NCBI GenBank assembly: GCA_002021875.1
Contig: CP018627.1
Coordinates: 992,001 to 1,056,000 of the forward strand
Source: Streptomyces hygroscopicus
GTDB taxonomy: Bacteria; Actinomycetota; Actinomycetes; Streptomycetales; Streptomycetaceae
DNA: 64,000 nt
Direction of reading: 5' to 3'
Shown here in pieces: positions 45,701 through 48,700 of this stretch (positions within the stretch are counted from its first letter, which is position 1; every line of letters starts with the position of its first letter). Under the pieces are notes generated by a model. It was not told where the DNA came from. It made no database searches and worked only from the letters and a program-made list of their open reading frames with translations. The position numbers and the translations under genes were made by a program.

Positions 45701-48700
45701 ACGAACGGCGCCAACGCCGCCGCACACTCACCAATCCGCTCCGCGAACACCGGCGAGGACTCCAGCAACCCAGCCGCCATCCCCACCCACTGCGACCCCT
45801 GACCAGGGAAGACGAAGGCCACTCCGGAGCTGCGCCTGGCGACGCCTTCGACCAGCCCGGAGGCGCCTCGGCCCGCGAGGTGATCGGCCAGGGTCCGTAC
45901 CGCCTCCGCACGGTCCGGGGCCAGTACGACCGCGCGGTGCTCGAAGGCGGTCCGGGTGGTGGCGAGGGACAGTCCGATGTCCCCGCCCACGACCTCCGGG
46001 TGCCGCTCCACGTGCTCCAGCAGCCGCCCGGCCTGGGCACGCAGCCCCGCCTCGGACTTGCTCGCCAGCGGCCAGGGGACGAGCGGCAGCGCCGTCCGGG
46101 CCGCCTCCGTCCCCTCTGTCTCCTCCGCCACTTCGGAGCCGGAGGTGACGTCGGCGGGGTCATGGGTGGCGGACGGCCGTGGTGGCGCCTGCTCGATGAT
46201 GGCGTGGGCGTTGGTGCCGCTGATGCCGAACGAGGACACCCCGGCCCGGCGCGGTCCATCGCTCTCGGGCCACGCGGCGGCCTCGGTGAGGAGCTCGACG
46301 GTGCCCGTCGACCAGTCCACATGCGGCGACGGCTCGTCGATGTGCAAGGTGCGGGGCAGCGTGCCCCGCTCCATCGCCAACACCATCTTCATCACACCAG
46401 CCACGCCGGCGGCAGCCTGGGTATGGCCGATGTTGGACTTGACCGACCCCAGACGCAGCGGACGATCCGCGGTGCGCTCGCGACCATAGGTGGCCAGCAG
46501 CGCCTGCGCCTCGATCGGATCGCCCAGCTTCGTACCCGTTCCGTGCGCCTCCACGGCGTCGACCTGCCCGGCCGTAAGCCCGGCGTTGGCCAGCGCCTGG
46601 CGGATCACCCGCTGCTGGGACGGGCCGTTGGGGGCGGACAGCGCACTGCTCGCACCGTCCTGGTTGGTCGCCGTGCCCCGGACGACGGCCAGCACGGGAT
46701 GCCCGTTGCGTTGTGCGTCGGAGAGCCGCTCCAGGAACAGCATGCCCGCGCCCTCGGCGGCCCCGAAACCGTCGGCCGCCGCCGCGAAGGGCTTGCACCG
46801 GCCGTCGGCCGCCAGGCCCCGCTGACGGCTGAACCCGATGAAGGTGCCGGGGGTGGCCATGACGGTGACACCACCGGCCAGGGCAAGGGAGCACTCCCCC
46901 TGGCGCAGGGCCTGTACGGCCAGGTGCAGGGCGACCAGCGACGAGGAACACGCGGTGTCCACCGTGACGGCCGGGCCCTCCAGACCCAGGGTGTAGGCCA
47001 CGCGCCCGGACACGACGCTGATGGCGCTGCCGGTCACCAGGTGACCCTCGACACCACCGTCGGTGGCCTCGTGCACCCGCGGCCCGTAGTCGGGGGCCAC
47101 GGCCCCGACGAAGACTCCGGACCGACTGCCCCTGAGTGAGGCCGGGTCGATGCCCGCCCGTTCGATGGCTTCCCACGAGGTCTCCAGCAGCAGCCGCTGC
47201 TGCGGATCCATCGCCAGCGCCTCACGAGGTGAGATCCCGAAGAAGTCGGCGTCGAAGTCGCCGCCGTCGTGCAGGAATCCGCCCTCGCGCGCATAGGAGG
47301 TGCCCGGCCGGTCGGGGTCCGCGTCGTAGAGCGACCCGAGGTCCCAGCCACGGTCCTCGGGGAACGCCGTGATGGCGTCCTCGGCCCCGCTCAGCAGCCG
47401 CCAGAACTCCTCGGGAGAACGCACCCCGCCGGGGAAGCGGCAGCTCATCCCGACGATCGCGATCGGTTCGCGGGCCGCGGCCTCCACATCCTGCAGACGC
47501 TGCCGCGTCTGGTGCAGATCAGCCGTCACCCGCCGGAGTCGGTCGGTCACCATCGCGGGGGTGGCGTCGTCGTCCGCCGTGTCCGTGCCGGGCAACGCGG
47601 CTTCCAGTCCGTCGAGTTCGGCGGCCGTGCCCGACGGGTCGTCCGCCGCCACGGGGGCGATCTCCGCATCCAGGTGTGCGGCCAGCGCGGCGGGAGTCGG
47701 GTAGTCGAAGATGAGGGTCGCGGGCAACCGCAGCCCGGTGGCCGAGTTCAGCCTGTTGCGCAGCTCGACCGCGGTGAGCGAGTCGAAGCCCAGCTCCAGG
47801 AAGCCACGATCGGTGACCACCGCCGAAGCTGTCTCGTGGCCGAGGACCGTGGCGGCGTGTTCCTGGACCAGGCGCAGCAGCGTCCGCTGCCGCTCCCCCT
47901 GGCCGAGCCCGGCCAGCCGCCGCACCAGCGGCGCCTCCTGCGAACCAGGCTCTTCCTGGGCCGAGGCGCGCCGGGACAGGACAGGCCGTCGTACGAGCCC
48001 GGTCAGCAACGGCGGCACGGGCGTGGTATCGGCGGTGGCTGCCAAGTGGCCGAGGTCGAGCCGCGCGGGCACCACCACGCCCTCGGCCAGCCGCCCGGCC
48101 GTGTCGAACAGCCGCAGCCCCTCCTCGGAGGAGAACGGCACCAGTCCGCCCCGTGTCATACGAGAGAGGTCCGCCTGGCCGAGGTGTCCGGTCATCCCGG
48201 TGCGCTCGGCCCACAGGCCCCAGGCGAGCGACACCCCGGGCAAGCCCATCGCCCGGCGCCGCTGTGCCAGTCCGTCCAGGAACGTATTGGCCGCGGCGTA
48301 GTTGGCCTGTCCCGCGGACCCCAGGACACCGGCGGCCGAGGAGAACAGGGCGAACATGGCCACATCGAAACGGCGCGTCAGCTCATGCAGATGCCACGCC
48401 CCATCGACCTTCGCCCGCAGCACCGCATCCAGCCGCTCCGGCGTCAGCGACGTCACCGTGCCGTCATCCAGAAGACCCGCGGCATGAACCACACCGGTCA
48501 GGCCATGTCCATCGGGCAGCCCCGCCAGCAGATCCGCCAATGCCGCGCGATCGGCGACATCGCAAGCGGCAACCGTGACCGAGACCCCCTGGGTCGTCAG
48601 CTCCGTCTCGAGCGCTGCCATGCTCTCGGCCGCGCGACCACGGCGGCTGACCAGCAGCAGCCTGCGTATGCCGTGCTCCGCCACCAGATGCCGGGCGACC

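Follow-up and report, generated by a model that had tools for sequence, protein, structure and literature searches.

Gene 1 and its long linker

The window analyzed here is the whole stretch of 64,000 nt of Streptomyces hygroscopicus DNA, C1:992001-1056000 of a single-contig 12.0 Mb genome, and positions given without a contig are positions in that window. On its minus strand lies gene 1, a PKS gene whose reading frame stays open for 12,567 codons, from 65496 to the stop at 27793, with an ATG at 65478, outside the window. The Gln-type KS of the loading module (DAGQASS) also lies outside the window, and KS active-site motifs are found in every module of the gene. Table 1 collects the features discussed below.

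Table 1. Features of gene 1 around the boundary between modules 3 and 4, with the block it has in common with a second PKS and two ordinary docking domains for comparison
Feature	Position in window	Strand	Basis
Gene 1, fused PKS: KSQ-type loading module + 7 extension modules	27793..64000, start outside window	(-)	open frame
Block common to gene 1 and the genome's own cluster II	~44680..53140, edges +/- ~0.8 kb	(-)	stepwise identity
Module 3 ACP, end of putative former upstream protein 1a	47671..47871	(-)	Pfam PP-binding, stretch 44-110 of translated window:34501-48000
C-docking helix 1 remnant	47587..47625	(-)	alignment to unfused rows
C-docking helix 2 start, with internal Met 47551-47553	47536..47574	(-)	alignment + breakpoint mapping
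Deletion junction, 1-3 bp ambiguity depending on unfused row	47537..47539	(-)	two-parent breakpoint mapping
N-docking coiled-coil remnant	47479..47538	(-)	PF08990 positions 10-29 of 29
KS of module 4 (first KS of putative former 1b): DTACSSS	46939..46959; KS start ~47469	(-)	motif
Gene 2 ordinary N-docking domain (comparison)	27660..27746	(-)	PF08990 match
Gene 3 ordinary N-docking domain (comparison)	16693..16779	(-)	PF08990; 16/20 residues equal to fused remnant

The linker that leads from module 3 to module 4 spans 47467-47667. Measured from the FDYPTP motif of the ACP to the start of the KS, it has 80 residues, compared with 36, 36, 39, 51, 40, and 46 at the other six ACP-KS junctions of gene 1. 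An earlier reading of this DNA, made from the sequence only, had put the linker at about twice the usual length, which these measurements bear out; and the alternative that it had allowed for, that long linkers are common at such junctions, fails on the same six values.

On the N-docking side, PF08990 matches the linker with 33.3 bits in a search of the genome, and with 25.0 bits against a cutoff of 20.9 when the protein piece is used. The coil had been likened to that of gene 3, and the two indeed agree in 16 of 20 residues. The linker copy is neither full-length nor at the N-terminus of a separate protein. PF08990 scores above its cutoff at 45 places in the genome. At 44 of these, an in-frame stop precedes the match by 1-399 codons; the only exception is the linker copy, which sits 5,986 codons into its frame with 0 stops in the 620 codons read.

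On the C-docking side, we number the helices 1-3, and we take helices 1-2 to be the dimerizing part. By alignment, helix 1 can still be recognized in the linker, as can the beginning of helix 2, and this C-docking part has gained Gly and Pro substitutions. The ELDGLEAAL that had been described as C-docking-like is the remnant of helix 1, and it reads ELDRLEAAL in 11/11 unfused rows of the alignment. The recognition helix 3 (DELFAFIDQEFG) and the stop codon, present in unfused relatives, were not found in gene 1 of this genome. One detail of the sequence-only reading has to be given up. The internal Met, considered as a relict start, aligns with the Met of helix 2 in the unfused rows (TRAMVADRL in the unfused genome G594), and the real start codon has been deleted.

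Read directly, the splice places Val, Leu, Val, and Leu at positions -4, 0, +3, and +7, a pattern by which the helical hydrophobic spacing appears to be kept across the junction. The ratio dN/dS over the 38-codon remnant is too noisy to use. Among the solved relatives by sequence are DEBS chains and the polyketide synthase 7s6b. Like the class 1 docking domains of cis-AT PKSs (with a PF08990 coil, as in DEBS), the linker has a recognizable helix 1, a recognizable beginning of helix 2, and the last 20 positions of the coil. Unlike them, it lies inside one predicted polypeptide, and since helix 3, the stop, the start, and the first nine N-docking positions are gone, it is not a docking pair.

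Split relatives and fused junctions

We looked for the junction DNA in four overlapping samples of the genus, each of 392-393 genomes and with two candidates scored per genome, in seven genomes reached via named loci, and in one draw of 395 relatives, which gave no further matching genome. Scanning contigs with a KR segment from nearby turned up 12 loci, of which L103 and L106 stop short of the junction; L107-L113, with matches of 46-63% to the KR query, were taken to be other PKS genes. We distinguish two kinds of boundary: kind I is the orthologous boundary of gene 1, and kind II is the homologous boundary in a second PKS, cluster II. As to the orthology of kind I, five other loci align to our gene 1 over ~8 kb on each side with 88-90% identity, and the S. 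rugosispiralis locus aligns with 87-88% over its 3.4 kb contig only.

Two of the kind I loci, those of S. samsunensis (L105, genome G395) and of the S. rapamycinicus-type genome G594, are split at the DNA level and otherwise collinear with gene 1. In both, the upstream gene, 1a, ends in ...AADELFAFIDQEFG(S)-stop (in a longer reading of the same end, ...HLETAAADELFAFIDQEFG(S)-stop), and after a 94 bp spacer the downstream gene, 1b, starts with its N-docking domain. Across 11 unfused rows the spacer is 90-97 bp. Among proteins, P0001 (S. sp. DSM 41524) and P0004 (S. malaysiensis) show the 1a end, and P0002 (S. malaysiensis), P0003 (S. rapamycinicus), and P0010 (S. asiaticus, incomplete at the far end) show the 1b start. 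The sequence-only reading had proposed that gene 1 is a fusion of two PKS genes, and had looked to homologous clusters for a stop and a start at this point. S. samsunensis and G594 have both, in genes collinear with gene 1 and split at the same point. We put at about 95% the probability that gene 1 arose naturally by fusion of 1a, a PKS gene for the loading module and modules 1-3, with 1b, a PKS gene for modules 4-7.

Breakpoints were obtained by two-parent mapping against the unfused rows. With respect to kind I, our genome lacks 379 bp against G594 (rapam_I) and 367 bp against S. samsunensis (samsu_I); with respect to the kind II boundaries, 289 bp (rugos_II) and 295 bp (G096_II) are absent. 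On the C-docking side, what has been lost is the remainder of helix 2, the recognition helix 3, the stop codon, and the spacer. On the N-docking side, the bases ahead of the start codon, the start codon itself, and the head of the coil are gone. The two ends rejoin in frame at an overlap of 1-3 bp, and so short an overlap makes end-joining at very short homology the probable origin of the deletion.

In the fused enzyme, the ACP of module 3 would hand the chain to the KS of module 4 inside one polypeptide, with the covalent tether taking over from docking. Since this ACP and this KS would still be the partners that belonged together before the fusion, no change in the product is expected. The leftover N-docking coil could act as a passive or weakly dimerizing linker before the KS dimer.

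At the DNA level, 5/7 of the kind I loci read are fused: ours and those of G096, S. endocoffeicus (G394), S. rugosispiralis (G393), and S. violaceusniger NBRC 13459 (G392). The five species present four different junctions, every one of them in frame and with overlaps of 0-3 bp. S. endocoffeicus and S. rugosispiralis are counted as having one common junction because their breakpoints agree (VADRLKPELSRGYLRRV, VADQVKGPPSRDHLRRV). The G096 junction reads ...GPAGGP/AAARE, with the N-docking coil completely gone, and that of S. violaceusniger reads ...VAADEL/QRLQDVE. Upstream bases are kept in G096 and S. violaceusniger and lost in our genome and S. endocoffeicus, and bases of the N-docking domain are kept in the latter two and lost in the former two. 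The ELDRLEAAL motif, unchanged in the unfused rows, is altered in 3/5 fused ones (ours, S. endocoffeicus, and S. rugosispiralis), a decay of helix 1 such as would be expected once docking is not needed. The public assembly of S. violaceusniger NBRC 13459 (L102) carries many apparent frameshifts in this PKS, away from the junction, so its gene models are unreliable.

Trees were built for four regions with six kind I rows, namely ours and those of S. samsunensis, G594, G096, S. endocoffeicus, and S. violaceusniger. The unfused G594 is grouped with the fused G096, S. endocoffeicus, and S. violaceusniger (support 100, 100, 99, and 98), and our genome and S. samsunensis fall outside that group. Within the four-species group the topologies are discordant between regions, with supports of 54-95, so recombination may blur the history. 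Because the unfused G594 nests among fused rows, and because the junctions differ, fusion at the kind I boundary is recurrent, and the same two observations favor four separate fusions. By junction geometry alone, our junction is derivable from the S. endocoffeicus/S. rugosispiralis form, and that of G096 from the S. violaceusniger form. The strict minimum could be two fusions, if two junctions are nested second deletions, which the trees do not favor. A single fused ancestor for all the fused rows was also considered and rejected, given the differences in the bases retained and the position of G594.

A second PKS with the same boundary

Cluster II of our genome is at C1:10.64-10.74 Mb, and there the boundary is split. 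The block common to gene 1 and cluster II takes in module 3, wholly or for the most part, then the boundary and the KS-AT portion of module 4; its copy in cluster II is at ~10.647-10.657 Mb (G000:C1), ~8.5 kb. Comparing our cluster I, that of gene 1, with our cluster II, we observe 82-91% identity inside the block and ~77% or less on the nearest flanks, and a lower-identity gapped match to cluster II reaches up to 54195. Inside the block, our cluster I is about as close to our cluster II as it is to its G096 orthologue (79-94%). That the identity between clusters is about that between species speaks for exchange between clusters I and II or for gene conversion. In the upstream half, the tree separates I from II. 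The N-docking domain nearest to the remnant in gene 1 is that of cluster II gene 2, with 18/20 residues equal, when 36 of the 44 ordinary N-docking domains are compared.

The kind II boundary is split in 9/9 genomes read: ours, G096, G392, G393 (where the copy, rugos_II, is a 3.6 kb contig), G394, G055, G383, G564, and G150 (= G398, S. niphimycinicus). We place G564 in kind II on account of its upstream side, where the support for the II group is 100, and of its II thioesterase; its downstream side groups with I (77). Fusion in 5/7 kind I versus 0/9 kind II boundaries gives a Fisher p of 0.005, a value that ignores relatedness. Considering both kinds together over seven genomes, the kind I boundary is fused in 5/5 genomes with a matching II boundary (ours, G096, G392, G393, and G394), and split in the 2/2 for which no matching II boundary was found, G395 and G594 (Fisher p 0.048). 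A II thioesterase query has no match in G395, and has an 82% match in G594. For G594, the absence of a II boundary rests on two scored candidate regions and on a motif scan of 110 kb, in which no N-docking domain of the MSEQEKLL type was found before seven motif-matched KS starts.

We designate cluster II as azalomycin/niphimycin-type by association only, through S. niphimycinicus and the location of the thioesterase match in G594. In the excerpt of PMC9206652 used here, that match lies within an 'Azalomycin F3a' prediction, and a 'Bafilomycin B1' prediction spans the coordinates of cluster I of G594, assuming in both cases that the coordinates are those of the same assembly. In the azalomycin-like locus of G594 (L179-L184, C1:1050001-1160000), no counterpart of the boundary of the first cluster II gene was seen, and this locus may be reduced. 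The homologues of cluster II gene 2 (L041) fall into two forms: a longer one (P0072, P0078, P0095, and P0105; ~3,772 aa), which has ER-type domains, and a shorter one (P0087, P0094, P0099, P0101, and P0106; 3,451-3,469 aa), which lacks them. These two length classes suggest that an ER domain has been gained or lost.

Drivers of the fusion and its setting

Why would this boundary be lost? That the junction is an assembly or sequencing artefact is extremely improbable. The S. violaceusniger draft is frameshifted, but 0.3-0.4 kb is missing from a single-contig genome, and five separate genomes are fused, with four junctions. The sequence-only reading had allowed for a sequencing error that hides a stop and a start. 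That does not hold up either, because breakpoint mapping shows that several hundred bases are gone, and an error in a base hiding a stop cannot explain such a junction. A real fusion could serve to insulate the two assembly lines from each other. Because the module-boundary-module block is common to both clusters, the 1a/1b docking pair is nearly identical to the cluster II pair, and fusing 1a to 1b would make the transfer from module 3 to module 4 private, avoiding mis-docking with cluster II, by which chains would cross from one line into the other, and leaving the other pair free. We hold this idea tentatively, at decidedly less than even odds. It is consistent with the cluster II gene 2 domain being the nearest to the remnant among the 36 compared, with our cluster I being about as close to our cluster II as to the G096 orthologue in the block, with the fused and split kind I boundaries following the presence of a matching II boundary (p 0.048), and with the II boundary itself staying split in all nine genomes read. 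A review of PKS engineering (PMC12284057, in the portion consulted) warns of aberrant cross-talk. On the other hand, the species are not independent and the lineages are few, and four random events on seven lineages, five of them II-bearing, would all hit II-bearing ones about 1 time in 4. Moreover, a similar docking pair (HLESAEADELFSFIDQEFGPS on the C-docking side) occurs in a third PKS of G594, which is nevertheless unfused, and the absence of a II boundary in G594, given the two regions scored and the motif scan, is provisional. As a general rule, that lineages whose two lines have come to share a docking pair by exchanging a module-boundary-module block escape cross-talk by deleting the pair of one line and tethering its subunits covalently, the idea is unlikely.

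A neutral, irreversible ratchet is as likely as such insulation or more so, and we would give it not quite even odds. Rare short in-frame deletions would remove the boundary, the fused enzyme would work well enough, and the loss could not be reversed. It agrees with breakpoints that differ, have no common end product, and show overlaps of 0-3 bp, and also with docking remnants that decay. An engineered fusion of sceQ and sceR is still productive at lower yield (PMC5785472, in the excerpt available). Chance deletions alone do not account well for the concentration of fusions on one boundary, 5/7 kind I versus 0/9 kind II (the p of 0.005 again ignoring relatedness). The boundary between genes 2 and 3 of cluster I keeps its stop (and start) in S. 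violaceusniger and G594, and in our genome and G096 each of the genes 1, 2, and 3 has a frame of its own. Alternatively, a covalent link could be selected because it keeps 1a and 1b in equal amounts and lets them assemble co-translationally, and the two genes are adjacent, with the 94 bp spacer, in the two unfused kind I loci read. Any such advantage in stoichiometry should apply equally to the other boundaries, which are unfused where read (S. violaceusniger, G594, our genome, and G096), and we consider it improbable as the driver.

Docking domains and the engineered removal of a boundary are already known. Docking classes are treated in PMC9113145, and covalent fusion is contrasted with docking in PMC8792006, as far as the excerpts of both go. 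In another Streptomyces PKS, sceQ and sceR were joined by a 14 bp deletion, and the product was made at a lower yield (PMC5785472, same excerpt). As in gene 1, the removal of a stop and a start yields one predicted protein there, and the sceQ-sceR fusion still makes its product; unlike it, the fusion of gene 1 is natural, its deletion is larger, and it is found in several species with different ends. In the azalomycin F line, docking joins modules 1/2 to module 3, and ER-KS recognition operates across their boundary (PMC9899208, in the part seen). Cluster II likewise keeps a split boundary, its putative likeness to the azl genes being by association, whereas the homologous boundary is fused in gene 1. 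Natural recurrent PKS fusion with docking remnants is not named in the titles and abstract openings of the open-access papers that our searches on fusion and docking brought up.

What is unusual here is a natural fusion repeated at one boundary beside relatives that remain split. The gain or loss of PKS boundaries is usually inferred, and here the split and four fused states coexist among close relatives. For the joining of PKS subunits, the fused junctions offer naturally occurring linkers whose sequences are known, and the split loci serve as controls in which the ACP-KS pair is the same. These coexisting states also make it testable whether docking codes limit the number of assembly lines per cell.

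Other PKS loci were noticed along the way. A third group has a related boundary and a similar docking pair: L161/L172 (G594), L142 (G392), L156 (G628), and L016/L047 (G252). The stop of the C-docking domain is seen in L161, L142, and L156, and G252 is shown on the N-docking side only. Near PKS genes, L010:2214-9578 encodes a protein of 2,454 aa with NMO, KS, AT, ACP, and KR, which is unusual for a modular PKS layout. Also there, L010:9965-11764 encodes a protein of 599 aa that has two stretches of ABC ATPase and may be an ABC-F protein for self-resistance, a name that we infer.
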